DNA of 64,000 nt from Natronospirales bacterium (GTDB taxonomy: Bacteria > Pseudomonadota > Gammaproteobacteria > Natronospirales > REEB76): contig JAKAXB010000010.1 in assembly GCA_021816765.1 (NCBI GenBank), positions 1-64,000 on the forward strand, in the 5' to 3' direction. This document shows positions 14,758-42,233 of this stretch, piece by piece. Position numbers and translations under genes: made by a program. The notes under the pieces were generated by a model. That model saw nothing but the letters and a program-made list of their open reading frames with translations, was not told the origin of the DNA and ran no database searches. Every line of letters begins with the position of its first letter. Positions within the stretch are counted from its first letter, which is position 1.

Positions 14758-14758
14758 A

Positions 14759-17458
14759 TCAGTGCCGCGAAGCATGGTTGTCCGGTGTGGATGACTGCTG
14801 ACGATCATAGGTGAACAGCGTCAAGACTGCGGGTAAAACGATCAGGGTACATACCAGGACCCATCCAAGCGCGATACTCAAGGTAATTCCCAACATAGCT
14901 ACAGCAGGATCCGATGCAACAGCAAGGCTTCCGAAAGTACTCATTGTTGTGAGTGCACTGAAGAATATTCCGATCGGAGTACTGCTACGCATGACTTTAT
15001 TTATATCCGTACCATCTCGCCAGCGCAGGATTAAATATATTCCATAAGCGATCCCCAAACCTACCAGCAATGGCAGCACGATAATATTTGCGAGATTGTA
15101 TGAGATGCCAGCCAGTTCCATGGTGGCGCTTGTAAGTAGACACGCGAGGCCAAGTGGTGCAAGCACTAGTATAGTGTCTCGCAGGTTGCGCAGCACTAGT
15201 AGTAGCATGATGGCAATGAACACTATTGCGGTAATTGTTGCCTGGCGAAATGCATTGATTACAGCATTTCCACCTTCTACCATCATGACGGAGATACCAA
15301 CGGCATCGGGGGAAACAGCCTTAACATCGTTTACGAAGCGCCGCATATTGGCGGTTGCGTTAAGGTTCAAAGACGAAAATACCTGGATCCGTGCTTGCCC
15401 ATTTGCAGAAAGGTATTGATCGCGCAGGTCTGTTGGTAATGTAGCTAGCGTTACAGGTTGCGCATTGAATGCTTGATGCAAGCGCGCAAGTTCTTCAGGT
15501 AGAGTTCCGATAACTCGTTGCTGGAGTAATAAGTATTTCTGAGGACTGTCTGCATATTTTTGTTGAAACTGGGCAAGTGCCATATCGAGTGCCTGCATGG
15601 AACGACGCAAATCAGGTTTCTTTATGTTCCGGACGGCGTGTTTGAGATGCGAGCGGAATTTATTTATTGAATCTTCAATCTGCCGAACACTGGGTGCAAC
15701 GATTGTCGATGAGGGAAGCAAGGTAAACGGCGGTGAAATTATAGACATCTGGCGAATGATATTCAGTTTATAGGCTTGATTGGTCGGAATAAAGCTGTCC
15801 AGTGTTATCGCCTGTGCGACGGAGCGCACATGGCTGATTCTGGCAGCGACCCGTTTTGCACTAGTGAGATCAGGTTCGAGTATATCTATTGTATAGGGTG
15901 AGTACTTACTCTCTGCCAGCAGTTTATGGAATGCTTCAACGCCTTCAGATTTAGGGTTCTGGAGGTGTAGTGGATTGAAGTCAAAGTGTGTTCGTAATAC
16001 GAGAGGGATGGAGAGCACACCTGCTATGACGGCGATAATCGTGATGCCAGGCGCATATTGTTTGAAATGGAGATGGCGCAAGTTGAAGTGATACTGGTCA
16101 CGCAGGATGCTTGGTTTTATACGCATCAGGGCCAGTAAGGACGGTAGGACCGTTAGATAGGAAAATAAGGCGATGAAAATACCAGTCCCGGCAATGATAC
16201 CCAGTCCGATTATGCCTGCATATGCTGTCGGGACGAATGAATAAAAGCTTGCAGCTGCAGCAATTGCCGCAAGAGTGAGGCCTCCACCCATCCTCAAAGA
16301 GGTTGTATGAAGTGCCGATGCCAGCTCGCTGTTTGTGCGGGATTCTTCAAGATAGCGGACACAGAATTGGATGCCAAAATCAACACCGAGCCCCAAAAAT
16401 AAGACAGCGAAAGAAATAGAAATTAAATTAAACGGCCCGACAAAATATAGTGCGAATGCGGTTGTCCAAATCAATCCAGCGATCAATGTGATAAGAACTG
16501 CTGCTATGATGCGCCAGCTACGTAGGCCAAGTGTCAGCAAAATAGCAACCAGGCAAAAAGCTAATATCGTGGCGAAACTTATTCCAGTTGATACGGTGCG
16601 GAGTTGATTGTTATCTAGGACTGCCTCACCTGTTAGGTGTACCCGGACCCCCTCGGCGGCACTGAGATGGAGTGATTCTATCCGTTGCCTAAGATCGTTA
16701 ATTGAAGCTGCATAAGGCCTAAATGTATGACGCTCTGCTATCGGTTTGACCATTATGAATTGGAGGTGTTGCTGAGATGACACCTTATTTCCAACGATCA
16801 GTGAACCCCATGGCATCTGGTAATAATGTCGGCTATCTATAGTATTTACGGTTCTACTCAGTTTGTTGAATATAGGGCGCAGTCCTGAAAGCATAAAATT
16901 ATCATTGTTACTGTTTTCCAGTGCTTGATCCAGTAATCCAAATACCCCACGTAAATTTGGGTCTTGTGTCAATCTTGCAATTAGCGGTTGCGCCTGTGAC
17001 AATTTATCGCTCAAACCTTGAAGTTGATCTGCACTTAGATAAAGCAAGCCATTCTGTGCGAAAAATCTACCTCCCCCAGGTTGATAAACGAAGCTGTACT
17101 CTTTTGGACGCGAACGTAACCATGCAGACAGTTCATCCGCTGCCCGAGTGGCCAAGCCAGCCGTATCACCTTGGATTACAACGGTTACTGTCTCATGCAA
17201 TTGTGGGAATGCGTTTACGTATTTGATATTGCGTTGTTGAAACGGAAGATCTCTGGCTATGAGATCACTGGAATTCGTATTGATTGAAAAGTGGGTAACC
17301 ACGTAGAGAATTGACAGGCAGGTGATGATGGCAGTCAGTAGCAAGACAGAACCAGCCTTGCGTCGGGAAAAATCGACTACGTGGCATAACAGCCGAATGT
17401 AGGCATTGCCAGTTGCTGTCAATATCGGATTGAGATTCTTAATCTTATGTAATGTCAT
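14759..17458 (-). CDS. hpnN: hopanoid transporter HpnN (RND/MMPL superfamily)
   Basis: Inner-membrane RND-type transporter; HpnN proteins move hopanoids towards the outer membrane. At 899 aa it has the family's length and layout: a first helix (VLLLTAIITCLSILYVV), a large periplasmic loop, five clustered helices including LISISFAVLFLGLGVDFGIQ, a second large loop, and a second cluster with LANIIVLPLLVGLGIAYGIY. The paired GLGVDFGI and GLGIAYGI motifs in equivalent helices are the sterol-sensing/MMPL signature. Its start overlaps hpnK by 14 nt and hpnL begins one base after its stop, indicating translational coupling. Composition is AT-richer than genes outside the island. Confidence 0.9.
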   Translation of the reverse strand: MTLHKIKNLNPILTATGNAYIRLLCHVVDFSRRKAGSVLLLTAIITCLSILYVVTHFSINTNSSDLIARDLPFQQRNIKYVNAFPQLHETVTVVIQGDTAGLATRAADELSAWLRSRPKEYSFVYQPGGGRFFAQNGLLYLSADQLQGLSDKLSQAQPLIARLTQDPNLRGVFGLLDQALENSNNDNFMLSGLRPIFNKLSRTVNTIDSRHYYQMPWGSLIVGNKVSSQQHLQFIMVKPIAERHTFRPYAASINDLRQRIESLHLSAAEGVRVHLTGEAVLDNNQLRTVSTGISFATILAFCLVAILLTLGLRSWRIIAAVLITLIAGLIWTTAFALYFVGPFNLISISFAVLFLGLGVDFGIQFCVRYLEESRTNSELASALHTTSLRMGGGLTLAAIAAAASFYSFVPTAYAGIIGLGIIAGTGIFIALFSYLTVLPSLLALMRIKPSILRDQYHFNLRHLHFKQYAPGITIIAVIAGVLSIPLVLRTHFDFNPLHLQNPKSEGVEAFHKLLAESKYSPYTIDILEPDLTSAKRVAARISHVRSVAQAITLDSFIPTNQAYKLNIIRQMSIISPPFTLLPSSTIVAPSVRQIEDSINKFRSHLKHAVRNIKKPDLRRSMQALDMALAQFQQKYADSPQKYLLLQQRVIGTLPEELARLHQAFNAQPVTLATLPTDLRDQYLSANGQARIQVFSSLNLNATANMRRFVNDVKAVSPDAVGISVMMVEGGNAVINAFRQATITAIVFIAIMLLLVLRNLRDTILVLAPLGLACLLTSATMELAGISYNLANIIVLPLLVGLGIAYGIYLILRWRDGTDINKVMRSSTPIGIFFSALTTMSTFGSLAVASDPAVAMLGITLSIALGWVLVCTLIVLPAVLTLFTYDRQQSSTPDNHASRH

Positions 17459-18308
17459 GGTAAGCTATCCGGTCTATACCCAAGTTATCGAGAAGTTTAC
17501 GCACAGATGGACTCAATAACGCTTTTAATTCCCTATCATGCTGGGAATTTTCCTTAATCGCAGCTAAGGAAGACGTGGCGGGATGAAAATATATTTCATT
17601 TATTCCGTGTGGCAGGTGATTCACGATTTTAATGAGAGTTTCTTCGTTCATTCTTCCGGTTTCGCTTAATCCGAACAGGTGGTCATTGTGTGCGATATTG
17701 GCAGAAGCCAGCTTAGCGCGCAGCAACGTCATCCAGGGAGCGATGAACAAAGACCAAGCGATATTCTTTATCGCGAGGTGGTTTGAGATGCGACGGGTAA
17801 CTCTCAGCGGCTCATATGGCAGTCTGATAGCGCGCATGCCATAGTCAGGACCGATGCGGATGAGCATATTGAGTATGGTGGGATGCAGATGAAAATGTTT
17901 ATGCACGTTAACATGATCTAACGTCAGACCAAAGCCAATGAACGAATCGAACTGAGCACGAATCTCGGTTTCGAGCTGACGGCGTACCCGCTGCAGAAAA
18001 AAGAATCGAAATCCTGCCTGTACCATGTCGATGGGTAAGTACCCATTGGTATCAATCAAGTCAGGAATTATTTCGGATCGAGAGGTAGGCCAGCCATCAC
18101 TCAGGACAAGATGAAGACCTATCCGCAGAGTAGGAATATTTTTAGCACGCCGGACGGCATCTGCTGTGGCAGGAGCTCCAACCATTAGACTGGCGGATGT
18201 TAATATCCCGTATCGGTGTGCTTGTTCCACAGCCTCATTGATGGGTATCGTCAAACCAAAATCATCCGCTGTCAGGATGACCCGAGTGGGTTTGGATGTG
18301 TTCGTCAC
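17445..18308 (-). CDS. hpnK: hopanoid deacetylase HpnK (YdjC/ChbG family)
   Basis: Carbohydrate deacetylase of the YdjC fold. In hopanoid biosynthesis HpnK removes the acetyl group from the N-acetylglucosaminyl hopanoid made by HpnI. The 287-aa protein opens with VILTADDFGLTIPINEAVE, carrying the metal-binding Asp pair, followed by GIGLH-type RIGLHLVLSDGWP and the His cluster LDHVNVHKHFHLHP. The ending HPATSS is also family-like. The start codon is GTG 18308. It overlaps hpnN by 14 nt downstream. A 439-bp stretch with no gene separates it from hpnJ upstream, which is unusual because hpnI-J-K usually run close together. Confidence 0.9.
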   Translation of the reverse strand: MTNTSKPTRVILTADDFGLTIPINEAVEQAHRYGILTSASLMVGAPATADAVRRAKNIPTLRIGLHLVLSDGWPTSRSEIIPDLIDTNGYLPIDMVQAGFRFFFLQRVRRQLETEIRAQFDSFIGFGLTLDHVNVHKHFHLHPTILNMLIRIGPDYGMRAIRLPYEPLRVTRRISNHLAIKNIAWSLFIAPWMTLLRAKLASANIAHNDHLFGLSETGRMNEETLIKIVNHLPHGINEIYFHPATSSLAAIKENSQHDRELKALLSPSVRKLLDNLGIDRIAYHDIT

Positions 18309-18747: not shown

Positions 18748-20175
18748 CTAGAACGAGGTTTGACGTTGGCGTAAGAAATGAGCGAACTCAAGTCCCTCAC
18801 GTAAGCGACGTTTCACCATATCAGGGCTTTTTATCATTTCCAACACCAACTCGGTTATCTTGCCGGGCCGGAAATAGAACCGTTTGTAGAAGGTTGTTAA
18901 GGAGTTGAAAATTTCGGTGTGATCCAAGTCGGGGTAGCTGAGTGGAATCAATTGGAAGCCATTAGCGTTGACAAGATTATCTTGATTGATTTTTGTTAAC
19001 CAGCCATTTTCAATCGCTTCGCGATAAAGTCGCGTGCCAGGGTAAGGGGCGGCAAGTGAAATCTGTATGGTGTGAGGATTGATTTCCTGGGCAAAACGTA
19101 TGGTTTCCTGAATGGTCTCCCTTGTCTCACCAGGTAACCCAAGAATGAAAGTACCATGAATAGTTATTCCGAGATCACGACAGTCCCGGGTAAACCGTCG
19201 CGCGATGTCGAGTCGCAGACCTTTCTTTATGTTGTAAAGAATCTGCTGGTTTCCGGATTCGTAACCAACTAATAAGAGTCTCAGGCCATTTTCTCGCATA
19301 ACCTTTAAGGTTCCATACGGCACATTGGCTTTGGCATTACAAGACCAAGTGACTCCCAATTTGCCAAGTCCACGCGCGATTTCTTCTACGCGTGGTTTAA
19401 AATCCGTGAATGTATCATCGTCGAAGAAAATTTCCTTAACCTGAGGAAAGTTATGCCGTATATATTTTACTTCTTCGATGACATGCTCAGGGCTACGTAC
19501 ACGGTATCGGTGGCCCCCCACTGTCTGTGGCCACAGACAGAATGTGCATTTGGATCGGCAACCACGTCCCGTGTAGAAAGAGATATAAGGATGTTTTAGG
19601 TATCCAATGAAATAATTCTCGATGGTAAGGTCGCGCTTATAGACCTCTGAAACAAAGGGCAATTCATCCATGTTCTCAATCGTGGCACGGCCAATATTAT
19701 TGATGATTTTTCCGAATCCGTCTTTGTAACTGATTCCCGCCGTTTTACTGAGTTCCCGGCCTTCCGCAATCTCTTTGATTGTGTAGTCAAATTCCTCGCG
19801 AGCAACAAAATCTATTGCCGATGCGACGATCAGAGAGGCTTCGGGTTCCACGGCTACCTTTGCACCTACCATGCCAATCAGCAAACCGGGATTTTCCTCT
19901 TTCAATATTTCGGCACATTTCGTGTCTGCCAAGAAGGAGGGAGAACTGGTATGCATGATTACCAGGTCGTATTGCTTAGCGAGCGGCCTGATATCTTGGA
20001 TACTAAGCCCATCAGCCGGCGCATCGATGAGTTTACTGTCGTGGATCATGGCTGCTGGCTGAGCCAGCCATGTGGGATACCAGAATGACCGTATTTCACG
20101 CCTCGCTTGGTAACGAGATCCGGCGCCGCCATCAAAACCATCATAAGAGGGCGGGTGCAAAAAAAGGGTTCTCAT
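18748..20175 (-). CDS. hpnJ: hopanoid radical SAM enzyme HpnJ
   Basis: B12-binding-type radical SAM enzyme. HpnJ acts after HpnI and HpnK to turn the glucosaminyl head group of bacteriohopanetetrol into the cyclitol ether. The 475-aa protein starts MRTLFLHPPSYDGFDGGAGS, an N-terminal cobalamin-like domain, and the 4Fe-4S cysteines are in GCRSKCTFCLWPQ near residues 204-212 (CxxxCxxC). EIFFDDDTF, GLRLLLVGYESGNQ and GTFILGLPGETRET are standard radical SAM strands. The start ATG 20175 overlaps the hpnI stop in ATGA; an open extension upstream is not used. Frames in hpnI and hpnJ are thus translationally coupled. Confidence 0.92.
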   Translation of the reverse strand: MRTLFLHPPSYDGFDGGAGSRYQARREIRSFWYPTWLAQPAAMIHDSKLIDAPADGLSIQDIRPLAKQYDLVIMHTSSPSFLADTKCAEILKEENPGLLIGMVGAKVAVEPEASLIVASAIDFVAREEFDYTIKEIAEGRELSKTAGISYKDGFGKIINNIGRATIENMDELPFVSEVYKRDLTIENYFIGYLKHPYISFYTGRGCRSKCTFCLWPQTVGGHRYRVRSPEHVIEEVKYIRHNFPQVKEIFFDDDTFTDFKPRVEEIARGLGKLGVTWSCNAKANVPYGTLKVMRENGLRLLLVGYESGNQQILYNIKKGLRLDIARRFTRDCRDLGITIHGTFILGLPGETRETIQETIRFAQEINPHTIQISLAAPYPGTRLYREAIENGWLTKINQDNLVNANGFQLIPLSYPDLDHTEIFNSLTTFYKRFYFRPGKITELVLEMIKSPDMVKRRLREGLEFAHFLRQRQTSF

Positions 20176-21344
20176 GGAGGATCTCCAGATCGTATTTCTG
20201 CTGAACCATCCGCGTGTAGAGACAAGCGCTGTTCTCGCCAGCGAACCGTATTGCGACCGAAGCTGGCACACCATTCGACAAAGGTCAGGGTATCACGTAA
20301 GGGGATTAGCCGCCATGATAACCGGTTGACCGTATGAGATGTCCGTTCGACCATGAAATGTTGCATAAACCGCAATAATAGTGAGGTGCCCAGCAGTAGC
20401 AGCGAGGGGAAGCTCCCTCTTGTCAGGAGAACACCAAAAGCCGTGATGAGAAGAGAATGAGTAATGAGAGAGAAAATGTACCCGATTGGGTGCAGATTTC
20501 GGATCGTGCAGGACCAGCGCATTTCGTGATGCCAGAGTGTACACAGATCTTGGTCTGGCACCGTTGTTCTAACGATATAACTGGAAAGTACCGTTCTCAA
20601 TCCGCGTCTGCGAGTGAGTTCGCCGAGTCTATAGTCATCTGCCAGGGAGTTTGAGATGGCTTCAAACCCTCCTATTGCAACCAAGGTTTCGCGTCGTAGA
20701 GCAATCGTGGCGCCAAAGGCAAATGCGCGGGATCCAAATGCATGTGCAACAAGTACAGAAGGGAAGAACCAATCATTTATGAAAAGAGTACCAAGTTGCG
20801 ACCAAATCCCATTAATCGGGATACCAGCATAAAGACAAGTCACTATGCCGACGTCCATGTTTTCCAGAGGAGCGACCAAATTTTTCAGATAGTCAGGATC
20901 TACCACGATATCGCTGTCAGCAAGAACCAGCCAGTCATGCTTGGCACTAGGCAGCATATTCAGCAGGTTGCATACTTTCAAATTACTTCCGACGGCAATG
21001 TCGTTAATTACCACCGCCATATCCACATTCGGGAACTCCAGACGCAGATGTTCGACAACGATAAGTGCTGGATCGTCAGGCTCCCGTACGCCAAACACAA
21101 TCTGGTAACGCGGATATTTTTGTAGGCAAAAGGAACGGAGATTCTCGTAAATGTGAGGTTCTTCACCGCATAAAGGCTTCAGGATGCTAATAGGGCGTGA
21201 AACGGCGGGCTCCGCTGGCTTGCGGAAGCGCCAGAGTGCGACAACGCTGAGAGCCACTATCTGATAAACCATTGCTACGCCGCCAAGGGTGTAGCCGATG
21301 ATCGCTAGAATTCCAACGCTAGAGGACGTCAGCATGCTTGTCAT
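20172..21344 (-). CDS. hpnI: hopanoid glycosyltransferase HpnI
   Basis: Membrane-bound family 2 glycosyltransferase related to ceramide glucosyltransferase; HpnI adds N-acetylglucosamine to bacteriohopanetetrol. The 390-aa protein has an N-terminal helix (IIGYTLGGVAMVYQIVALSV), the donor-site strand VSRPISILKPLCGEEPHIYE, DSDIVVDPDYL (DxD-like metal site), DDYRLGELTRRRGL (catalytic acid), and WHHEMRWSCTIRNLHP, which matches the (Q/R)xxRW motif of the family. C-terminal helices follow. It is the first gene of the minus-strand operon and diverges from hpnA across 211 bp, which must hold the promoters of both. Its stop overlaps the hpnJ start. Confidence 0.9.
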   Translation of the reverse strand: MTSMLTSSSVGILAIIGYTLGGVAMVYQIVALSVVALWRFRKPAEPAVSRPISILKPLCGEEPHIYENLRSFCLQKYPRYQIVFGVREPDDPALIVVEHLRLEFPNVDMAVVINDIAVGSNLKVCNLLNMLPSAKHDWLVLADSDIVVDPDYLKNLVAPLENMDVGIVTCLYAGIPINGIWSQLGTLFINDWFFPSVLVAHAFGSRAFAFGATIALRRETLVAIGGFEAISNSLADDYRLGELTRRRGLRTVLSSYIVRTTVPDQDLCTLWHHEMRWSCTIRNLHPIGYIFSLITHSLLITAFGVLLTRGSFPSLLLLGTSLLLRFMQHFMVERTSHTVNRLSWRLIPLRDTLTFVEWCASFGRNTVRWREQRLSLHADGSAEIRSGDPP

Positions 21345-21555: not shown

Positions 21556-22545
21556 ATGAAAATACTCCTTACCGGTGGGACCGGCTTTGTAGGTTCAGCG
21601 GTTTTGCGCAGACTGCTTCTTGCCGGTTATCAGGTGAGAGCCCTTGTAAGGCAATCGAGTAACCGGCGTAATCTGGAAGGTTTGGATGTAGATATCGTAA
21701 TAGGGGATTTGTGTGATTCAGCTTCTCTGGCATCCGCCATTAGAGGGTGCACTGCCTTATTCCATGTTGCAGCCGACTACCGCCTTTGGGCATCTGATGC
21801 CGCCGAATTGTACCGTAGTAATGTGGAAGGTACGCGAAATATCATGCTTGCAGCCGGCCGGGAGGGCGTTGATCGCGTTGTTTATACAAGCAGTGTAGCT
21901 ACACTGGGGTTGAATAAAGATGGTTCACCTGCGAACGAAGATACGGCTTCAGTACTGGATGACATGATCGGACACTATAAGCGCTCCAAATATTTGGCAG
22001 AGTCTGAAGTCAGACGCCTTGCTTTGGAAGAAGTGGTTCCTGCCGTCATTGTCAATCCTTCGGCTCCTGTCGGACCGCGCGATGTAAAACCGACACCGAC
22101 TGGGCGGATGATCTTGGATGTGGCTTCTGGCAATATGCCTGCCTACGTAGATACCGGATTGAATATCGTGCATGTGGATGATGTAGCCGAAGGGCATTTG
22201 CTGGCATATCTGCATGGGCAGATTGGCGACCGCTATATACTGGGCGGAACAAACCTGACACTTAAAGAGATATTTTCTCAAGTATGCAGAATTAGCGGGA
22301 ATCGACCACCGAGAATCCGCTTGCCTCACAACCTGCTGCTGCCGATAGGCTATGCGGTCGAAGCATGGGGTCACCTGACGGGACAGGAACCCAGATTCAC
22401 GATTGATGGCATACGACTTGCCAGGAAGAAAATGTTCTTTGTCGCAGATAAGGCTATCCGGGAACTCAATTACCGTCCTCGTCCGGTCACCATGGCATTT
22501 CAAGATGCTGTTCAATGGTTCAGAGAGAATGACTACTTAAAGTAG
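21556..22545 (+). CDS. hpnA: hopanoid-associated sugar epimerase HpnA
   Basis: Extended short-chain dehydrogenase of 329 aa. The NAD(P)-binding motif GGTGFVGSAVLRRLL is at residues 7-21, LFHVAADYRLWA follows, and YTSSVATLG with the YxxxK-type HYKRSKYLAE carries the catalytic residues. VNPSAPVGPRDVKPTPTG is typical of HpnA, a hopanoid-locus subfamily whose exact substrate is not firmly known. A GAGGGTGG ribosome site precedes ATG 21556. It heads the plus-strand run that continues with squalene synthase after about 400 bp. Confidence 0.9.
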   Translation: MKILLTGGTGFVGSAVLRRLLLAGYQVRALVRQSSNRRNLEGLDVDIVIGDLCDSASLASAIRGCTALFHVAADYRLWASDAAELYRSNVEGTRNIMLAAGREGVDRVVYTSSVATLGLNKDGSPANEDTASVLDDMIGHYKRSKYLAESEVRRLALEEVVPAVIVNPSAPVGPRDVKPTPTGRMILDVASGNMPAYVDTGLNIVHVDDVAEGHLLAYLHGQIGDRYILGGTNLTLKEIFSQVCRISGNRPPRIRLPHNLLLPIGYAVEAWGHLTGQEPRFTIDGIRLARKKMFFVADKAIRELNYRPRPVTMAFQDAVQWFRENDYLK

Positions 22546-22954
22546 GGATCGGATAAACCCCGAAGATTTGGTCCCTCGAACTAGATTCGCTGTGCACGTC
22601 GCAAACGAGTCATCACGGGAGGCAATATATAGGCATATTTGGGAATTATTTGGACAGATACCTGCCTAAACTATAGGATTGGGTTGGCTGATCATTAACT
22701 TGATTTATACTTGTTTTCACTGCTGTCAAGAGGATTAGAAAATGAACTGTTTTTTGGTTGTAAGTTGTTGATTTTTCAAGATGGTGTTTTTGGATATTGA
22801 AGTTGAAATCGCACCACCTCTCAGACCTCGAAGAGCCGTATCGGCAAAAGCTTTGCGAGAATCGTGTCCCCAGACAACCGGATAGTAGTGACTTGTTTTA
22901 GTCAACGATCACGTGGAAACTGATTTCTGGAACAACAGGCAAATACACCCACCC
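22546..22954. other. AT-rich gap between hpnA and squalene synthase
   Basis: About 400 bp with no gene or RNA I can recognise. It is among the most AT-rich stretches of the island and probably contains the promoter for the squalene synthase to hpnG run. I could not pick a convincing -35/-10 pair. Confidence 0.4.
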
Positions 22955-24046
22955 ATGTCACAAGTACCCAACAGCGACTTAAAAAGCAATGTTGACGCTT
23001 ACCAAGAGGAGATACTGTACAAGGTGTCGCGAACGTTTGCTTTGACTATACCCCAGTTGCCAGCGGTTCTTCGACGTATTGTCGGGAATGCGTATCTATT
23101 GTGCCGGATAGCGGACACTATAGAAGATGAGGTCGCACTTACGCGTGAGCAAAAACGCGGATTTCATAATCAATTCACTTCAGTCGTAGCGGGCAGGGAG
23201 GAGGCGGAAAAATTTACATCAGCAATCTATCCGTTGTTGTCTGAGCGCACGCTTGCGGCGGAGCGCGAGCTCGTACGGAGTACGCCACTTGTTGTCAGTC
23301 TGACACATCAATTTAGCAAGGAACAGCGGATTGTGATTGAAAGATGTTTGAATATCATGTGTCAAGGCATGCCGGAGTTTCAGTATCATACCGGTCTTGG
23401 TGGTCTGAAAGACATGAGGCAGCTTGATCGTTATTGTTACTACGTAGCGGGAGTGGTCGGGGAAATGCTGACAGACTTATTTTGCACTTACTCACCAGAG
23501 ATTAAAAAACACCGCACCTCCCTGATGCCGCTGTCGATTTCGTTTGGGCAGGGGCTCCAAATGACAAATATCCTTAAAGATGTATGGGAAGATCGAGCAA
23601 ATGAAGTGTGCTGGTTGCCGTATGAATTATTCCTTAAAGAAGAGTGCGATCTATATACGCTTACCTCGGGACGCTACAACAAAGGGTTTGACATCGGTCT
23701 GGAGAGGATGATAGCTATTGCTCATACTCATCTCCGCAATGCGCTTGCATATACCTTGCTAATACCAAGCCAAGAGGTCGGCATTCGCCGCTTTTGTCTC
23801 TGGGCGATAGGGTTTGCCGTGCTGTCGCTGCGTAAATTGCGGAATACACCGGGATTTGCCTCCGGCCAACAGGTTAAGATTTCACGGCGTTCGGTTAAAA
23901 TTGTCATGGTGATGGTAAACGCTGCGGTTCATAATGACGTCATACTCAAACTGTTGTTCCGATGGTCCGTCCACGGCTTGCCGTCCGGTTCTCTGGATCC
24001 TGACTGGGCGCCTTGGGAAATCATGGATATTTCGAGTCGGGATTAA
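22955..24046 (+). CDS. squalene synthase (phytoene/squalene synthase family)
   Basis: Head-to-head prenyltransferase expected to join two farnesyl diphosphates into squalene for the cyclase encoded next door. The first aspartate-rich site is CRIADTIEDE, the second is TNILKDVWEDR, and RYCYYVAGVVGEMLTDLF lies between them. These resemble the one-step (eukaryote-like) squalene synthases such as that of Methylococcus more than the HpnC/HpnD pair, and no hpnC, hpnD or hpnE is present here. No membrane anchor is evident. ATG 22955 gives 363 aa; a GTG at 22913 would add 14 residues and neither has a strong ribosome site. It ends 23 bp before the cyclase gene. Confidence 0.87.
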   Translation: MSQVPNSDLKSNVDAYQEEILYKVSRTFALTIPQLPAVLRRIVGNAYLLCRIADTIEDEVALTREQKRGFHNQFTSVVAGREEAEKFTSAIYPLLSERTLAAERELVRSTPLVVSLTHQFSKEQRIVIERCLNIMCQGMPEFQYHTGLGGLKDMRQLDRYCYYVAGVVGEMLTDLFCTYSPEIKKHRTSLMPLSISFGQGLQMTNILKDVWEDRANEVCWLPYELFLKEECDLYTLTSGRYNKGFDIGLERMIAIAHTHLRNALAYTLLIPSQEVGIRRFCLWAIGFAVLSLRKLRNTPGFASGQQVKISRRSVKIVMVMVNAAVHNDVILKLLFRWSVHGLPSGSLDPDWAPWEIMDISSRD

Positions 24047-24069: not shown

Positions 24070-26031
24070 ATGCATAAACGCCTGCCGCTTTCAGAAACTC
24101 ATTATCATGGCGATGGAGCACATATACAAGTTAAGGATACTGGCGGTGGAATTTCCCTGGCGGCGGCGATTGATGCCACGCGCCTTGCGCTGCTGAGGCT
24201 ACAGCATCCAGATGGCCATTGGTGTTTTGAGTTGGAAGCGGACTGCACTATTCCATCTGAATACATTCTGATGATGCACTACATGGATGAAATTGACCTC
24301 GGCTTGCAGTCGAAGTTGGCCACTTATTTACGCGCTCACCAAGCAAGCCACGGGGGATGGCCTCTGTACAGCGGTGGAGTCTTTAATATCAGTTGTTCCG
24401 TCAAGGTTTACTATGCCTTAAAACTCGCTGGCGATTGTCCTGATGAGCCACACATGGTGCGCGCCCGTAAGGCGATCCTTGCTGCGGGAGGAGCGGCACG
24501 GGCCAATGTGTTCACACGCATAACCCTAGCGTTTTTCCGCCAAATACCGTGGCGTGGCGTCCCTTTCATGCCTATCGAAATCATGTTGTTTCCACGCTGG
24601 TTTCCATTCCATCTGGATAAAGTTTCCTACTGGTCACGCACTGTGATGGTACCCCTTTTAATCTTATGCAATTCGAGGGCACGAGCAAGGAATCCGCAGA
24701 ACGTGGATATACGGGAATTATTTGTCGTACCGCCCGAGAAGGAGCGTCATTATTTTGAATCCCGCTCGGGTATTAACCGTATATTCCTGCTATTGGACAA
24801 GATCGGACGGACGCTTGACCCTCTATTCCCAAGGTGGATACGGCGACAGGCTGTCCGAAGGGCAGAAGAATGGTTTGTCGAGCGACTAAACGGTGAGGAC
24901 GGTCTTGGGGCGATTTTTCCTGCTATGGTCAATGCGTATGAAGCACTGGCATCGTTGGGATACGGGCCGGACCATCCATGTTGCGTGCAAGCCCGGACTG
25001 CTTTGGAAAAACTTTTGGTTGTGGGCGAGACCTCGGCTTACTGTCAGCCTTGCATGTCACCCGTTTGGGATACGGCACTGACTGTGTTGGCTTTGCAAGA
25101 AAGCGATGACTGTCTCAGCGAGCCCGTAAAACAAGCTTTGGACTGGCTCAGAGACCGCCAGATAAGCAATGCAGCGGGCGACTGGCAGAGATCCAGGCCT
25201 GACATACCAGCCGGAGGATGGGCATTCCAATATTCCAATTCTCATTATCCTGACCTGGATGACACATCAGTGATCGCTTGGGCCATGGATCAGGCTGGTA
25301 CGCCTGCCCGATATGGTAAATGCATTGAACGAGCTGCAGCATGGTTATGCGGTATGCAGTGCCGCAATGGGGGTTTCGCCTCGTTTGATGTGGACAATAC
25401 ACATTACTATTTGAATGAGATTCCATTTGCTGATCACGGCGCCCTGCTGGATCCACCGACCAGTGATGTAAGTGCGCATGTGCTCAGTTTTTTAAGCCGT
25501 CTGAAACAACCCACCGTCCGTCCCATGGTTGAAAAATGTCTCGCCTTCTTACGCAGCGAACAGGAGGAGGAGGGGGCATGGTTCGGCCGTTGGGGGACGA
25601 ACTACATATATGGGACTTCTTCCGTGCTGCTTGCGCTGGAACAGGCAGGTATAGGCGCTGAGCAACCGTGGGTGCGCAAGGCAGTGACATGGCTAAAGCG
25701 TATACAACGTTCCGATGGCGGTTGGGGAGAAGATAATCATACTTATTTTGAGCCGTCGTGTGCTGGTCAGGGTTTCACCAGTACATCGTTTCAAACAGCA
25801 TGGGCGCTACTCGGCCTGATGGCTGTGGGTCAGGGAACATCCAAGTCAGTGCAACGTGGCGTGGATTATTTACTTCGTACCCAAGGATCCGATGGTATGT
25901 GGCAAGATACCGTGTTTACTGCACCAGGTTTCCCACGGGTCTTCTATCTCAAGTATCATGGCTATTCAATTTATTTTCCTTTGTGGGCATTAGCGCGTTA
26001 TCGCAAGTTGAATGAGTGCATGGTTCATTAG
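24070..26031 (+). CDS. shc: squalene-hopene cyclase
   Basis: Monotopic membrane enzyme that cyclises squalene to hopene and hopanol. The 653-aa length is normal. The catalytic protonation motif is Asp395-Leu-Asp-Asp398 in PDLDDTSVIAWAM. Several QW repeats are visible, for example DGHWCFELEAD, GGWPLYSGG, GGWAFQYSN, GGFASFDVDN and GGWGEDN, and the active-site strand GRWGTNYIYGTSSVL is intact. It lies 23 bp after the squalene synthase gene and directly before hpnG, so substrate supply, cyclisation and side-chain maturation are on one transcript. The symbol hpnF is also used for this gene. Confidence 0.95.
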   Translation: MHKRLPLSETHYHGDGAHIQVKDTGGGISLAAAIDATRLALLRLQHPDGHWCFELEADCTIPSEYILMMHYMDEIDLGLQSKLATYLRAHQASHGGWPLYSGGVFNISCSVKVYYALKLAGDCPDEPHMVRARKAILAAGGAARANVFTRITLAFFRQIPWRGVPFMPIEIMLFPRWFPFHLDKVSYWSRTVMVPLLILCNSRARARNPQNVDIRELFVVPPEKERHYFESRSGINRIFLLLDKIGRTLDPLFPRWIRRQAVRRAEEWFVERLNGEDGLGAIFPAMVNAYEALASLGYGPDHPCCVQARTALEKLLVVGETSAYCQPCMSPVWDTALTVLALQESDDCLSEPVKQALDWLRDRQISNAAGDWQRSRPDIPAGGWAFQYSNSHYPDLDDTSVIAWAMDQAGTPARYGKCIERAAAWLCGMQCRNGGFASFDVDNTHYYLNEIPFADHGALLDPPTSDVSAHVLSFLSRLKQPTVRPMVEKCLAFLRSEQEEEGAWFGRWGTNYIYGTSSVLLALEQAGIGAEQPWVRKAVTWLKRIQRSDGGWGEDNHTYFEPSCAGQGFTSTSFQTAWALLGLMAVGQGTSKSVQRGVDYLLRTQGSDGMWQDTVFTAPGFPRVFYLKYHGYSIYFPLWALARYRKLNECMVH

Positions 26032-26113
26032 AGACGCGGCTGCAGCATCGCGCCAACACAGTATCGTCGGTGTCCATTCCTGCAAATATTCGAGCCGTCT
26101 GGATGGGTATCTT

Positions 26114-26881
26114 ATGCCTGGTGACACATTCCGTGCTTCCTGCCATCCTGGCACTACAACTGGGGTTGTTGCGGCTCTACCGGTTGAAGGCGATTGTTTA
26201 ACAGCATCCCGTATACATCCAGGGATTCTTGAAAGATTGCCAAGCGGTACATTGCTATGGATAGCGGGGATCGGTCCAGGACCAGCTATGCAGGCCGCTC
26301 ATGCCCTGATTGATGCCCACTGCACTGCGCTCGTTTCCTGGGGCATAGCCGGGGCTTTGAATCCGGAACTTGCGCCAGGTAGTGTTGTGGTACCCAGCCG
26401 GGTCATTACCTCTTCCGGAACGGCCTATGCGACCGAGCCTTCGTGGCGGCAGCGCATAGTTGATATCTGCCGTTGTTGGGTCCCTGTTATGGAGGGTGAA
26501 TTAATTTGTTCTGACCAGATTGTCTCGACCGTTACAGATAAAGCGGCATTGTGGCGACACTCAGGGGCAGCTGCAGTCGACATGGAAAGTGCGGCGGTGG
26601 CTGCGGTAGCGGCAGAGGCTGGGGTGCCTTTTCTAGCAATACGAGCCGTGGCTGACCTCGCCGATGAAATCTTGCCGGCTTTTGTGCTGCGGTCCCTTAA
26701 CCCATGGGGACGACCCAGGATTATGCCGCTGGCGGCGGGTTTATTGCGGTGTCGCCTGACCGACCTGGGTATGCTCTGGCAGTTGTCCCGGCACTTCGGG
26801 GCAGCAAGGCAGGCACTGACCGTTGTGGCAACACAATTAGGCGCGGGATTTCTCGCGCCAGAACAGCATGCCGACTGTTGA
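26114..26881 (+). CDS. hpnG: hopanoid phosphorylase HpnG (nucleosidase family)
   Basis: Member of the purine nucleoside phosphorylase / MTA-SAH nucleosidase fold. HpnG releases adenine from adenosylhopane to give ribosyl- or phosphoribosyl-hopane. TGVVAALPVEGDCL is the first strand, IAGIGPGPAMQAAHALI the substrate loop, VSWGIAGALNPELAPGSVVV the core, and VDMESAAVAAVAAEAGVPFL contains the conserved ME(S/T) that contacts ribose. From ATG 26114 it is 255 aa. The frame is open back to an ATG at 26012, inside the end of the cyclase gene, but those 34 residues do not resemble the family, so the later start is preferred. Its partner HpnH is at the far end of the island. Confidence 0.85.
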   Translation: MPGDTFRASCHPGTTTGVVAALPVEGDCLTASRIHPGILERLPSGTLLWIAGIGPGPAMQAAHALIDAHCTALVSWGIAGALNPELAPGSVVVPSRVITSSGTAYATEPSWRQRIVDICRCWVPVMEGELICSDQIVSTVTDKAALWRHSGAAAVDMESAAVAAVAAEAGVPFLAIRAVADLADEILPAFVLRSLNPWGRPRIMPLAAGLLRCRLTDLGMLWQLSRHFGAARQALTVVATQLGAGFLAPEQHADC

Positions 26882-27113: not shown

Positions 27114-28085
27114 ATGCAGGCCACGGCCCAAGCACAACCCAATATTGCCCTCATCAAGTATTGGGGCAAGCGACAAACCAAGCTTAACCTGCCAGCAGTC
27201 GGGTCTTTATCGATCACTCTCGATTCACTCTGGACACGGACATATGTGCGATTTGATTCGGGTTTGGAAAAAGATGAGTTTCATCTCAACGGTCAGTTGG
27301 ATACCATAAGGTGTCGGCGTGTTAGTCAATGCCTTGATCTTATGCGCCGCCGGGCAAATATTTCATACTGCGCTGCAGTAGTTAGCGAAAATAATTTCCC
27401 GACCGAAGCAGGCCTTGCTTCTTCAGCATCAGGATTTGCTGCGCTTGTCCTTGCCAGTTCTAAGGCCTTGGGGCTTGATTTGACTGATGAAGAGCTATCG
27501 GAGATTGCACGGCAAAGCTCTGGGTCAGCAGCACGCTCAATCTTCGGCGGATTCGTCGAGATGGAACTGGGCCATTGTAAGGATGGCTCAGATGCCATTG
27601 CCCATCCTCTGATTGGGCCTGAAGAGTGGCCATTGCATGTGGTCGTGGTCATTACTTCCGATCGCACGAAAATTATCGGATCTACTGAAGGCATGCAGCG
27701 TACATCTCTTTCATCCCCATACTATCAGGCCTGGATACAAAATCATGTATCTGATATCGAGGCGGCAAAACACGCCATTGCATCGCGTGACTTTTATGCA
27801 TTGGCGGACATTAGTGAGCATAATTGCCTTAAGATGCATGGCCTCGCATTATCAACCAGGCCAGCGCTTATCTATTGGAATGGTGCCACAGTCGAGTGCA
27901 TGAACTGCGTCAGGGATTTGCGTGCGTCGGGAACGGCGGCGTTTTTTACTATTGATGCGGGACCACAAGTAAAAGTCGTCTGTGCACCCTCAGAAACCCA
28001 GAAGGTTATGGACGCATTGCGGAATGTCCCCGGAGTGCTGTGTGTCTTGAACAGCTGTATCGGCCAGGGTGCTCGTCTTCTCTAG
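27114..28085 (+). CDS. mvaD: diphosphomevalonate decarboxylase
   Basis: Last enzyme of the mevalonate pathway: ATP-dependent decarboxylation of mevalonate diphosphate to isopentenyl diphosphate. The 323-aa GHMP-kinase-fold protein shows PNIALIKYWGKRQTKLNLP near residue 9, then EAGLASSASGFAALVLASSK (phosphate loop), SGSAARSIFGGFVEM, and FFTIDAGPQVKVVC with the catalytic Asp. These are specific for the decarboxylase within the superfamily. It opens the mevalonate cluster 232 bp after hpnG and is followed by phosphomevalonate kinase after 92 bp. The ribosome site is weak. Low-GC codon use matches the island. Confidence 0.93.
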   Translation: MQATAQAQPNIALIKYWGKRQTKLNLPAVGSLSITLDSLWTRTYVRFDSGLEKDEFHLNGQLDTIRCRRVSQCLDLMRRRANISYCAAVVSENNFPTEAGLASSASGFAALVLASSKALGLDLTDEELSEIARQSSGSAARSIFGGFVEMELGHCKDGSDAIAHPLIGPEEWPLHVVVVITSDRTKIIGSTEGMQRTSLSSPYYQAWIQNHVSDIEAAKHAIASRDFYALADISEHNCLKMHGLALSTRPALIYWNGATVECMNCVRDLRASGTAAFFTIDAGPQVKVVCAPSETQKVMDALRNVPGVLCVLNSCIGQGARLL

Positions 28086-28177
28086 CAGGCGCAGCCAGCC
28101 GGATTTCTGCCCCATATGATAGAACAACAGGCTTAGACATAATTCATACGCACGAACTCATCCCGGAGAGAGGTCAG

Positions 28178-29251
28178 ATGCAGGTATTCACGTCAGCGCC
28201 AGGCAAACTGGTTGTACTTGGCGAATACGCGGTGTTGCATGGAGCGCCCGCCCTGATAATGGCGATAAACCGTCGCGCTGAGGTGAGAGTAACGCCTGTC
28301 GCAAAGGGCTTAAACAGAGTTGATTCACTGGGATCAGGTATTGAGAGTGCGCATTTTATGTTTGATGGCGGTATACGCTGGCATCATGCTTCCCGGCAGA
28401 CGCAGGAACGTATGCAGCTTGTCACCCACATCATGCAGTTTTTTGCCAATAATGAAAATTGCCAACGACTGTGTTTCCCAACTTTCCATGTTCGATTGGA
28501 TACGAGTGGTTTCTTTTCCCCATCTGAATGCGGAAGAAGTAAACTTGGGTTGGGTTCAAGCGCTGCTTTGACCATTGCACTGGCTTCAGCACTCGTTATA
28601 TTTGGAGGCGCAGAGGAGGCCCTTACTGATAGACATACTTGGTTGGCGCGAGTACTGGTACTGTACAAAAATTTTCAAGATGGTTCCGGGAGCGGGCTTG
28701 ATTTGGCCGCAAGTCTGTATGGTAATGTGATCCGCTACGCGCTGAGCAGTTCAAGAGGAGCACCGGATGTCAGATTCATCAATCTGCCGCGCGGTATTCA
28801 CACTGTTTTTATATGGTCTGGACAACCGACATCCACACCTCAATTTCTCAAGCGACTTCATAGTTGGCGATTACAACAGCCGGGTCAGTACGATTCAGTG
28901 ATGCAGGAGCTGGCGGCCATTGCCGACATGGGTATCGTAGCTGTAGAGGAGGATAATGCTGCGGCATTTGTTGACACCGTCAAACTCTATAGTGCAGCAT
29001 TGAAACGGTTTGGAGAGGAGAGCGCAGTGGAAATATTTTCATCGGAGCATCGGCACATTGAAAAACTTGTTGCTTCACTGGGTGCTGCGTACAAGCCCTG
29101 TGGTGCAGGCGGCGGAGACATCGGCATGGCGATCACCATGGATCCTGAGGTGGCGTCACTACTGTCCAAGCGTATTGCAAGGGCCGGCTATCAGGTCGTC
29201 CCATTGCAAGTGGATAAGGTGGGGCTAAAAACTCAAACCATCACGGAGTAA
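28178..29251 (+). CDS. phosphomevalonate kinase (GHMP kinase)
   Basis: Phosphorylates 5-phosphomevalonate to the diphosphate. The 357-aa protein begins MQVFTSAPGKLVVLGEYAVL, the first GHMP motif. GLGSSAALTIALASALVI is the ATP loop, FQDGSGSGLDLAASLYGNVI matches phosphomevalonate kinases rather than mevalonate kinases, and CGAGGGDIGMAI is motif 3. ATG 28178 has a GAGAGAGG ribosome site; an open extension upstream into mvaD is not supported. The stop codon overlaps the ribosome site of the following fusion gene, so the genes are tightly linked. Assignment as the phosphomevalonate step also follows by elimination, because mevalonate kinase is found in the next protein. Confidence 0.87.
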   Translation: MQVFTSAPGKLVVLGEYAVLHGAPALIMAINRRAEVRVTPVAKGLNRVDSLGSGIESAHFMFDGGIRWHHASRQTQERMQLVTHIMQFFANNENCQRLCFPTFHVRLDTSGFFSPSECGRSKLGLGSSAALTIALASALVIFGGAEEALTDRHTWLARVLVLYKNFQDGSGSGLDLAASLYGNVIRYALSSSRGAPDVRFINLPRGIHTVFIWSGQPTSTPQFLKRLHSWRLQQPGQYDSVMQELAAIADMGIVAVEEDNAAAFVDTVKLYSAALKRFGEESAVEIFSSEHRHIEKLVASLGAAYKPCGAGGGDIGMAITMDPEVASLLSKRIARAGYQVVPLQVDKVGLKTQTITE

Positions 29252-29254
29252 AAC

Positions 29255-31513
29255 ATGGATCGATCCCGGATTCCTAATTTTTACAAGCTTTCGGTCGCCG
29301 AGCGTGTCCGCATCATCCATGAACGTGGCTTGCTATCGATGGAAGATTACCTGTCACTTGCTACGGGTAAGCACACCCTGAAGATTCACCACGCTGACAA
29401 GATGATCGAAAACGTAATCGGCGTGATGGGGTTACCTGTGGGATTGGGTTTAAACTTCCTGGTAAATGGCAGGGATTATGTGGTACCACTCGTTGTGGAG
29501 GAGCCATCGATAGTGGCGGCCCTGTGTTCTGCTGCCAAATTAGTCCGGCGTGCCGGTGGATTCCGTACCAGGAGTACCGAGTCAATCCTTATCGGCCAAG
29601 TCCAGATTATGGATGTTCCCCATCCTGCCAAGGCACAGGCAGCTTTACTGCAGAAAAAAGATGAAATCTTGAACCTTGCCAACAGTCTGCATCCGAAAAT
29701 GGTCGCCCGTGGGGGTGGTGCTAAGGATATCGAGGTAGTTATTCATCCTTGTGCGAGCACCGGCCATGACATGGTCGTGTTGCATCTGCTTGTAGATACA
29801 TGTGATGCAATGGGAGCTAATCTCGTCAATACCATGTGCGAAGGCATCGCGACGTTTGTGGAGAATATCACGGCAGGCAAGGTATTCCTGAGGATACTTT
29901 CAAATCTGACGGATCGTGCCCTTGTGTACGCTCAATGTGTCATTCCGACAGAATATCTTGACGACAATGGCCATGATGGTGAACAGGTTCGCGATGGGAT
30001 CATTATCGCGAATGATTTTGCCGCTATAGATCCGTATCGGGCTGCTACCCACAACAAGGGCATCATGAATGGTGTGGATGCAATGGCGCTTGCCACAGGA
30101 AACGATTGGCGAGCACTCGAGGCAGCGGCACATGCATATGCGGCACGGGGCCATACATACACGTCCTTGACGAGGTGGTACAAGAATGAGACAGGCGACC
30201 TCGTAGGCGACATTGAAATGCCCATGAAAGTCGGCATTGTCGGTGGCCCGTTGCAGTCGAACCCAACCGTTGCCATGAATCAGCGACTCCTGGGGGTCAG
30301 ATCTGCTCGTGAACTGGCTGAACTCATGGGTGCGGTCGGATTAGCACAAAATTTTTCAGCATTGCGTGCTCTCGTAACCGAGGGAATTCAGCAAGGACAT
30401 ATGACATTGCATGCGCGGAGTGTTGCGGTAGCGGCAGGTGCGACGCCCGAGATATTTGATTCGGTAGTGGAGCGGCTTATCGAAAGCGGTGATATCAAAA
30501 TATGGAAAGCCCAGGAAATTATTGACACAGTTCGCAAACAGGCATTCCCAAGCATGAAGGATAAAGTTCTTTCGGAGGGAAAAAAGGAAATCGAATATGG
30601 CGCCGGCTACGGGAAAGTTATCTTGCTCGGCGAGCATGCCGTGGTGTATGGGCGTCAGGCGATCGCTGCACCGATTCCACTGGCGATACGTTCAAAAATA
30701 GAGGACGCCAAGAAAGGCGTGACTCTTATTATTCCCCGCTGGGGTATCGAACAGAAGATACATGAAAAATCCGATTACCCTGATTCCTTTCAAAATAACA
30801 TGATTGGAATCATCATAGAAAAACTAGGACTGAGCAATCAGCCAATGCGTATCGAGGTATTCCCTAATGTACCCCGTGCGATGGGGTTGGGTGGTTCAGC
30901 CGCAATGGCCGTAGCGATCATACGTGCCATCGATAGACATTACAGGCTAGGCTTGTCTGACGAGGCAGTTAATGCTCTTGTCTTCGAGTGTGAAAAAGTA
31001 GCTCATGGTACGCCTTCCGGGATAGATAACACTGTGGCGACATATGGGAAATTTTTACTATACCGATCCGGAACCCCGCCCCATGTCCGTGAGTTGCTGG
31101 TCAGGAAACCTATCCCTATGGTAATAGGTTTGAGCGGCGTGGAGAGTCTGACAGCAAAAATGGTCGCACGTGTGCGACAATCTTGGGAGAGAAATACAAA
31201 ACTATATGAACACATTTTTGATGAAATCGAGCTATTGGTATTGCAAGGCCTAGACGCTATCGAAGCATACGATCTTGAGCAACTCGGTGCATTGATGAAT
31301 GTGTGTCAGGGTTATTTAACCGCATTACAAGTTTCGAGTTGGGAAATTGAGGAGCTTGTTCAGATTGCCCGTGATAACGGTGCATTGGGCGCCAAACTTA
31401 CAGGCGGAGGCGGGGGGGGCTCAGTGATTGCGCTATGTCCAGATAAGGCCGATCAAGTAATTAAAGCGATGCAAGAGGCGGGTTATCAGGGTATGGAGGT
31501 GCAAATTGGATAG
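29255..31513 (+). CDS. fused HMG-CoA reductase (class II) and mevalonate kinase
   Basis: One 752-aa protein that should carry out two successive steps: HMG-CoA to mevalonate, then mevalonate to 5-phosphomevalonate. Residues 1-432 are a class II HMG-CoA reductase: Glu83 in VVEEPS, DTCDAMGANLVNTM, Lys268 in HNKGIMNGVDA, Asp284 in TGNDWRALEA and His386 in LHARSVAVAAG are the catalytic set. Residues about 448-752 are a mevalonate kinase: GYGKVILLGEHAVVYGRQAI, PRAMGLGGSAAMAVAI, VAHGTPSGIDNTVATYG and KLTGGGGGGSV. The linker is under 20 residues and contains Met434 but no ribosome site before it, so separate translation is unlikely. It starts 3 bp after the phosphomevalonate kinase stop and overlaps idi by 8 nt. 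Confidence 0.92.
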   Translation: MDRSRIPNFYKLSVAERVRIIHERGLLSMEDYLSLATGKHTLKIHHADKMIENVIGVMGLPVGLGLNFLVNGRDYVVPLVVEEPSIVAALCSAAKLVRRAGGFRTRSTESILIGQVQIMDVPHPAKAQAALLQKKDEILNLANSLHPKMVARGGGAKDIEVVIHPCASTGHDMVVLHLLVDTCDAMGANLVNTMCEGIATFVENITAGKVFLRILSNLTDRALVYAQCVIPTEYLDDNGHDGEQVRDGIIIANDFAAIDPYRAATHNKGIMNGVDAMALATGNDWRALEAAAHAYAARGHTYTSLTRWYKNETGDLVGDIEMPMKVGIVGGPLQSNPTVAMNQRLLGVRSARELAELMGAVGLAQNFSALRALVTEGIQQGHMTLHARSVAVAAGATPEIFDSVVERLIESGDIKIWKAQEIIDTVRKQAFPSMKDKVLSEGKKEIEYGAGYGKVILLGEHAVVYGRQAIAAPIPLAIRSKIEDAKKGVTLIIPRWGIEQKIHEKSDYPDSFQNNMIGIIIEKLGLSNQPMRIEVFPNVPRAMGLGGSAAMAVAIIRAIDRHYRLGLSDEAVNALVFECEKVAHGTPSGIDNTVATYGKFLLYRSGTPPHVRELLVRKPIPMVIGLSGVESLTAKMVARVRQSWERNTKLYEHIFDEIELLVLQGLDAIEAYDLEQLGALMNVCQGYLTALQVSSWEIEELVQIARDNGALGAKLTGGGGGGSVIALCPDKADQVIKAMQEAGYQGMEVQIG

Positions 31514-32108
31514 TCATCTGCATGAAAATACCGATGAGATTGTATCTTTCACGTCAGAACAATTGATCATGGTAGATAGTCATGACAGGGAAGTGGGATA
31601 TGAGAGTAAAATTATCTGCCATGAAGGGCAAGGAATTTTACATCGCGCATTATCCCTGTTTATATTCAACAGTATCGGAGAATTACTGATACAGCGTCGT
31701 AGCGGCCAGAAGCTGCTTTGGCCCAATTATTGGTCGAATAGCTGCTGTAGTCATCCGCGCCGGGGAGAAACCACGGATGCCGCTGCTCACAGGCGTCTTG
31801 AGCAGGAACTGAGATTGACCAGTGAATTAAGATATTTATACAAGTTTCAGTATCAGGCTAGGTTTGGTGATATTGGTTCCGAACATGAGTTGTGCTGGGT
31901 ATACATCGGTAAGAGTTCAGAGCTGGTGCATGTCAATAGCCATGAGATTAGTGACTGGCGCTATATCAGTCCGGCACGGCTTAATCAGGAGATAGCTGAA
32001 AAACCAGAAGTATTCACTCCATGGTTTAAGATGGAGTGGAAGCGGATTAACAGAGATTACGCATCAGAGCTAGAAAAATTAAATCATGCTGCACAGGCAG
32101 TCTGCTGA
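31506..32108 (+). CDS. idi: isopentenyl-diphosphate delta-isomerase, type I
   Basis: Nudix-fold isomerase that interconverts IPP and DMAPP, the starter for farnesyl diphosphate. The 200-aa protein has the catalytic Cys81 in SNSCCSHPRRGE, the Nudix helix AAHRRLEQELRL, and the Glu-containing EHELCWVYIG. The start is an unusual TTG at 31506: GGAGG lies six bases upstream (31495-31499) and the conserved strand EQLIMVDSHDREVG requires a start before the first internal ATG (31569). The gene overlaps the end of the fusion gene by 8 nt, so translation is coupled. It is the last gene of the plus-strand run and converges on hpnH. Confidence 0.9.
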   Translation: MDSHLHENTDEIVSFTSEQLIMVDSHDREVGYESKIICHEGQGILHRALSLFIFNSIGELLIQRRSGQKLLWPNYWSNSCCSHPRRGETTDAAAHRRLEQELRLTSELRYLYKFQYQARFGDIGSEHELCWVYIGKSSELVHVNSHEISDWRYISPARLNQEIAEKPEVFTPWFKMEWKRINRDYASELEKLNHAAQAVC

Positions 32109-41969: not shown

Positions 41970-42062
<93 letters not shown>

Positions 42063-42118
42063 TTTGTGGCCATGTAGCAGAACAATTCTGCCTGCCTGTG
42101 TCATGATCAAAGTTCCAT

Positions 42119-42233
42119 GGCAGCCTGCGCCGGTTCCCTCGCAACGATAAACTGTGAACCCCGTCAGACCCGGAAGGGAGCAGCGGCAGCAGTGGTCTCG
42201 TGTGCCGGGGTGCAGCTGACGCAGGTTGCCACC
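42119..42233 (+). ncRNA. ffs: 4.5S signal recognition particle RNA
   Basis: Small bacterial SRP RNA of about 115 nt. The universally conserved Ffh-binding loop is present as CCGTCAGACCCGGAAGGGAG (42161-42180) and is matched by GTGCCGGGGTGCAGCTGACG on the 3' side. The ends pair: GGCAGCCTGCG (from 42119) with CGCAGGTTGCC (to 42230). It sits between tRNA-Ser and dnaX, a common gammaproteobacterial arrangement. The exact 3' end is approximate. Confidence 0.93.

Follow-up and report, generated by a model that had tools for sequence, protein, structure and literature searches.

The window, by which we mean the whole stretch of 64,000 nucleotides that was analysed, carries a hopanoid-mevalonate island spanning hpnL (13717) to hpnH (33348). 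The minus strand of the island encodes the membrane protein HpnL (13717..14808; TIGR03476, 309.2 bits), the transporter HpnN (14759..17458; TIGR03480, 921 bits), HpnK (17445..18308; TIGR03473, 360.5 bits), HpnJ (18748..20274; TIGR03471, 803.3 bits), HpnI (20172..21344; TIGR03472, 446.7 bits) and, at the other end, the adenosyl-hopene transferase HpnH (32215..33348; TIGR03470, 544.2 bits). The plus strand bears a series that begins with HpnA (21556..22545; TIGR03466, 487.5 bits). A squalene synthase of the SQS type (22955..24046, 363 residues), recognised from its SQS_PSY domain, its place in a tree, its motifs and its predicted fold, stands between hpnA and the gene of a squalene-hopene cyclase of 653 residues (24070..26031; TIGR01507, 832 bits for a cut-off of 431, with both the N and the C SQHop_cyclase domains of Pfam). 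Then come the phosphorylase HpnG (26012..26881; TIGR03468, 198.6 bits, cut-off 187.1), diphosphomevalonate decarboxylase (MVD, 27114..28085; TIGR01240, 297.8 bits, cut-off 171), a GHMP kinase that is probably phosphomevalonate kinase (PMK, 28040..29251), a fusion of class II HMG-CoA reductase with mevalonate kinase (HMGR-MK, 29255..31513) and type 1 isopentenyl-diphosphate isomerase (IDI, 31506..32108; TIGR02150, 152.7 bits, cut-off 105.8). The PMK-like protein scores 107.3 bits against TIGR01220 (cut-off 165.7) and takes its name from the equal slot in related islands; the portion of its frame that aligns with relatives begins near 28178. In the fusion, the reductase occupies residues 1 to 387 or so (TIGR00532, 407.6 bits) and the kinase about residues 453 to 727 (TIGR00549, 248.3 bits), both above cut-off. 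Gaps of 23 bp between SQS and cyclase, 232 bp between hpnG and MVD and 3 bp between PMK and the fusion interrupt this series; the remaining neighbours from SQS to IDI overlap. A promoter scan stayed at chance level, with 16 sites found for 16.2 expected. Elsewhere in the window (41970-42224), a tRNA and the small SRP RNA lie directly before dnaX.

Read on the plus strand, the SQS frame goes from ATG to TAA with zero internal stops, and upstream of this ATG it stays open as far as a GTG at 22913. An earlier note on this DNA had placed before the cyclase a single enzyme with the motifs DTIEDE, YCYYVAGVVGEMLTDLF and LKDVWEDR: exactly this frame was recovered, and the three motifs start at residues 54, 160 and 207. 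The protein scores 187.7 bits against the Pfam family SQS_PSY (PF00494, cut-off 26). Among the NCBIfam models, that of squalene synthase, TIGR01559, ranks first with 106.9 bits, a wide margin short of its curated cut-off of 286.75; HpnD follows with 61.3 bits and HpnC with 47.3, likewise under their curated cut-offs (278.6 for TIGR03465 and 250.45 for TIGR03464); a haloarchaeal relative also misses TIGR01559, with 108.1 bits. By simple Nei-Gojobori counts, the ratio dN/dS between the window gene and that of its nearest relative, at locus L075, is 0.10.

To locate the protein among its kind, a tree was built from 73 rows (LG+C20, PMSF). Its SQS rows come from a set of fetched loci that represents part of the 47 class genomes with SQS; it samples 15 of 30 HpnD rows (those of even-numbered loci) and 15 of 16 HpnC-like rows, the HpnC labels resting on adjacency and on similarity to HpnD, while L004, L007 and L030 were omitted as duplicates. 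The window protein pairs with that of L075 (100/100), forms with L068 and L066 a group of four rows (100/95) and is enclosed in a gammaproteobacterial SQS group of 35 rows (100/99). A branch supported at 100/100 separates the HpnC and HpnD rows, which stand together, from the SQS rows and from those of eukaryotes, haloarchaea and betaproteobacteria, so that the window protein falls outside the HpnD clade; a place within that clade would have told against the reading of the earlier note. Three eukaryotic rows join two haloarchaeal ones (97/84), a grouping to be read with a warning about long branches, the eukaryotic rows being segments only. The idea that the first part of the island was assembled along eukaryote- or archaea-like lines finds no support in this picture: the protein nests among gammaproteobacterial rows, apart from the eukaryotic and haloarchaeal ones, and SQS occurs in 47 of 274 genomes of the class Gammaproteobacteria. 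As far as model matches go, the mevalonate proteins do not support it either: they match models of bacterial type (class II HMGR TIGR00532, MVD TIGR01240, type 1 IDI), and the relatives of the fusion found by scanning are mostly labelled as gammaproteobacteria, with one labelled Rhodospirillales.

The motifs tell the same story. The window protein has both aspartate-rich motifs, DTxED and DxxED, as well as YCxYVAGxVG. The first of these is kept as D-T-x-E-D in 33 of the 34 other SQS rows (the remaining row carries V in place of T) and is also present in eukaryotes, while its equivalent is DDxVD in HpnD (15/15) and DDxAD in HpnC (15/15). Phenylalanine 280 aligns with human F288, numbered from the chain offset worked out for 3vj8, a residue with a role in the second half-reaction; it is kept in 33 of the 34 other SQS rows and in none of the HpnD rows. 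Going by the titles of the entries, structures of human F288A and F288L with bound presqualene diphosphate have been solved. Where the human enzyme has P292 and Q293, the window protein has A and I.

A structure predicted from three aligned sequences only (pLDDT 80.8) resembles most closely the eukaryotic squalene synthases (Z about 32-34.5 overall): that of Trypanosoma cruzi matches with Z 34.5 over 311 residues at 2.3 Å, and the human one with Z about 33-34. CrtM-like structures follow with Z 25-27 (best 27.0), and HpnC (4hd1) with Z 22.8 over 257 residues at 3.2 Å. By tree, motifs and predicted fold, then, the window protein groups with the one-enzyme squalene synthases and not with HpnC or HpnD. 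That it might be an HpnD- or HpnC-type enzyme in need of partners would agree with the weak scores which it obtains from those two profiles, yet tree, motifs and fold all speak against it, as does the absence of partners above cut-off, and we find the proposal scarcely credible. The CrtM structures, as next-best fold matches, bring to mind a dehydrosqualene synthase for C30 carotenoids. We hold this to be very improbable, as the SQS structures match better, the equivalent of F288 is kept, the next gene codes for the cyclase, and another source of squalene was not found in the genome of the organism.

This genome (G000) is a draft of 2.58 Mb in 47 contigs, 99% complete. A search with PF00494 found two places only in it, the window SQS and C34:78007. 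HpnD (TIGR03465) gave nothing over cut-off there, and HpnE (TIGR03467) one partial match of 33 bits, for a cut-off of 283 bits, in a search that yields weak matches in all 14 control genomes too. Thus none of hpnC, hpnD and hpnE reaches its curated cut-off in the assembly, whereas an hpnC or hpnE needed for squalene would have told against the earlier note, and the proposal of that note that a single SQS-type enzyme replaces the three proteins is upheld by the tree together with the genome-wide search. The protein at C34:78007 (L002, 1408-2277), a member of the SQS/PSY family of 289 residues, has an RmuC-like frame on one side and an SDR-like frame on the other. It was considered as a hidden HpnC or HpnD and rejected: both aspartate motifs are absent from its sequence, it reaches 155.6 bits where HpnD requires 278.6, and it stays below the HpnC cut-off. 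We take it to be a paralogue that would not make squalene, perhaps NDUFAF6-like.

The distribution of the two routes points the same way. With orthologues of SQS defined by an identity of at least 40% and an E value of at most 5e-58, and HpnD by its cut-off, 47 of the 274 class genomes have SQS, 68 have HpnD and none has both, for 11.7 expected (p = 4e-7, a value inflated by kinship); this lack of co-occurrence indicates that they are alternative routes. The statement that most hopanoid loci use HpnC, HpnD and HpnE therefore stands in the class, but loosely, with 68 HpnD genomes to 47 with SQS. The swap is ordinary: it is common in the class and has already been published for Methylomonas. Proteins with 27-32% identity to the window SQS also occur, at L158 and L159, where the first motif reads DTxAD, and in ten class genomes (G033, G071, G075, G077, G101, G128, G179, G201, G206 and G242), all of which have HpnD over cut-off as well. 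As for HMGR, it is over cut-off in 53 of the 274 genomes, and SQS is present in five of these for 9.1 expected, so that a general link between SQS and HMGR is absent.

We are thus highly confident that the window gene codes for a one-enzyme squalene synthase of the ordinary gammaproteobacterial clade, which replaces HpnD, HpnC and HpnE and lies upstream of a mevalonate module probably giving a second supply of C5 units. Gene content, the lack of HpnC, HpnD and HpnE over cut-off, clade, motifs, predicted fold and selection are the observations on which this rests; from them we infer the catalysed reactions, the cofactor and the joint use of the SQS and mevalonate modules. The enzyme would join two molecules of farnesyl diphosphate into presqualene diphosphate and use NAD(P)H to reduce the latter to squalene; from this squalene the adjacent cyclase would form hopene. 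That the cyclase needs squalene and starts 23 bp past the stop of the gene supports this function. MVD, PMK, the HMGR-MK fusion and IDI would probably provide, alongside the methylerythritol phosphate (MEP) pathway, a second source of the C5 units from which hopanoids are made. The MEP enzyme DXR is present in the genome and C5 units need not, therefore, depend on the mevalonate module; that the module would feed hopanoids in particular is suggested by the gene neighbourhood.

HMGR, mevalonate kinase and MVD are all over curated cut-offs. The four genes of the module have intact frames, and the dN/dS values between window and L075 (again simple Nei-Gojobori counts) point to purifying selection on each of them: 0.04 for HMGR-MK, 0.07 for IDI, 0.16 for MVD and 0.26 for PMK. 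Five of the 274 class genomes have the fusion, judged by frame length and similarity, and a pattern-based scan of genome contigs found it in 12 loci. We found no report of such a fusion in open-access articles, searched mostly at abstract level. A predicted model of it (pLDDT 57.6) was set aside. G239 was dropped as a further fusion genome because its frame of 847 residues matches the fusion over 147 residues only, with 24% identity. In the stretches fetched for 10 of the 12 loci, the fusion is accompanied by the cyclase or by one or more hpn genes, and neither is present in those of L081 and of L082, which is short. SQS lies beside the cyclase in L066, L068, L075 and L083, and the islands of L121, L122 and L123 have SQS frames upstream of them. 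The SQS-hopanoid-mevalonate island thus recurs, with its order rearranged, in records which their depositors labelled as Natronospirales, Nevskia and others. The nearest relative, L075, has a fusion 95% identical to that of the window and shares with it the right flank of the island. In G118, the PMK-like gene (L066, 1684-2745) lies past hpnH on the opposite strand and MVD adjoins hpnG, which shows a module rearranged.

The island is common to G000, G274, G118 and G234, and these four form one group (98/96) in a tree of the fusion, with G280 apart; that tree holds 16 of the 17 fusion genomes, the sequence of G281 (L082), which is cut off, having been left out. The same four make one group in the SQS tree as well. 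The GC content of the island in the window is 48.8%, for flanks of 59.2% and 58.4%, and this low value suggests lateral transfer. The island of G234 is at about 49% GC, where the leucine-degradation cluster of that genome is at 61%, and the island of G118 is at 63%; the two other genomes of the same order in the sample are both without SQS and without a full HMGR. An IS110-type transposase (11734-12645) is found near the left edge of the island.

One enzyme is missing from this scheme. HMG-CoA synthase (PF01154) gave no match in G000, G118, G234, G274 and G280, and the module may therefore not run from acetyl-CoA. The thought that hopanoid-mevalonate islands generally go without the synthase was overturned: G171 and G167 have it, and so do 10 of the 12 genomes to which the named loci belong, eight of these ten within the fetched island stretch, G279 on another contig and G281 as the tenth. 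Besides G000, G274, G118 and G234, 12 of the 13 other fusion-bearing genomes have it, a pattern which we read as one loss in those four plus one draft genome, G280. Might the gene sit in an assembly gap, or the enzyme be non-homologous or very diverged? The many contigs of the draft would leave room for this, and several related islands have the synthase just after hpnH; but the window is contiguous across that site with no remnant of the gene, G000, G118 and G234, which are 99%, 96% and 94% complete, lack it as does G274, and the sole place matching PF08541 in G000 is FabH-like. We consider such an oversight unlikely. In the same way, we would not expect, though we would not be astonished, to see the module incomplete and idle, or running on imported mevalonate. 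The missing synthase and the presence of DXR, which may make the mevalonate route dispensable, are in keeping with idleness, and in Mycobacterium ulcerans a disrupted hmgS is described as likely to leave the pathway non-functional (PMC13001223). Against this, window and L075 both have all four genes intact, and in G118 and G234 the genes were found in line; their dN/dS values of 0.04 to 0.26 are lowest for HMGR-MK, and imported mevalonate would make HMGR needless.

There remains leucine, which would add to the SQS explanation rather than replace it. A cluster of liu type, complete with its six genes in each of G000, G274, G234 and G118, comprises HMG-CoA lyase, which a specific curated model identifies above its cut-off, together with an isovaleryl-CoA dehydrogenase-like gene, a thiolase, two carboxylase subunits and an enoyl-CoA hydratase, all five named from resemblance to their families and from the order of the genes. 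In an established pathway, a cluster of this kind breaks leucine down by way of HMG-CoA. Here that compound would arise through isovaleryl-CoA dehydrogenase, 3-methylcrotonyl-CoA carboxylase and methylglutaconyl-CoA hydratase, and the HMGR-MK fusion would take part of it before HMG-CoA lyase cleaves it. The lyase is over cut-off in 5/5 of the fusion genomes without synthase and in 4/12 of those with it (17 genomes; Fisher p 0.029, which ignores kinship). The complete cluster with its lyase in all four island genomes, where the synthase is absent, and the purifying selection on the mevalonate genes favour a feed of this kind, and trypanosomatids and halophilic archaea are reported to make isoprenoids in a leucine-dependent way (PMC6832408). 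On the other side, the loss of synthase is about one event plus G280, so that the association comes close to a single data point; clusters of liu type consist of ordinary genes of catabolism, and the lyase competes for the same substrate. We found no leucine-fed bacterial mevalonate pathway in the open-access literature, which was searched mostly at abstract level. Taken together, lyase association, cluster and precedents make leucine the most likely single way in which the gap is filled, quite possible while short of probable. More tentatively still, we propose a mevalonate pathway that lost HMG-CoA synthase and draws leucine-derived HMG-CoA through the HMGR-MK fusion, for hopanoids made by way of the one-step SQS, beside an MEP pathway serving other isoprenoids, the whole set moving as one island.

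With reference to known systems, the SQS adds a further case to a swap already described. In Methylomonas, a single gene with an SQS/PSY domain is clustered with the cyclase while hpnCDE are absent (PMC10745290), and homologues of squalene synthase and cyclase are reported in Methylococcus capsulatus (PMC517821). The window is like Methylomonas in having SQS beside the cyclase without hpnCDE; it differs from both in that the passages concerned mention no adjoining mevalonate module, M. capsulatus being said to be mevalonate-independent. With the eukaryotic enzymes (human, T. cruzi, Aspergillus flavus), the window SQS has in common DTxED, YCxYVAGxVG, the second DxxED, the F288 equivalent and the predicted fold, but it is only 20-24% identical to them, belongs to a separate clade, whose own invariants are W211 and R278, and stays below the TIGR01559 cut-off. 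The HpnC/HpnD/HpnE route also supplies a cyclase of this kind with squalene, but with three proteins, other motifs and another clade, never together with SQS in 274 genomes.

It is the hopanoid-mevalonate island without HMG-CoA synthase, more than the SQS, that is worth following. In Streptomyces, mevalonate genes lie inside biosynthetic clusters, as a second C5 supply beside MEP (PMC13001223), and the window module, co-located with product genes, is probably likewise a second supply; the window cluster differs in serving hopanoids, in the fusion of HMGR with mevalonate kinase and in that HMG-CoA synthase was not found. The island therefore offers a testable case of two isoprenoid routes, one tied by neighbourhood to hopanoids and devoid of the enzyme through which it is normally entered. 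Should leucine be a source, the hopanoids of such bacteria would carry carbon from an amino acid rather than from sugar or acetate, which would bear on how they are read as biomarkers. The mevalonate pathway is described in one article as having its own HMG-CoA synthase and hence as independent of the breakdown of branched-chain amino acids (PMC9636800); were the leucine feed true, the island would be an exception to that statement.
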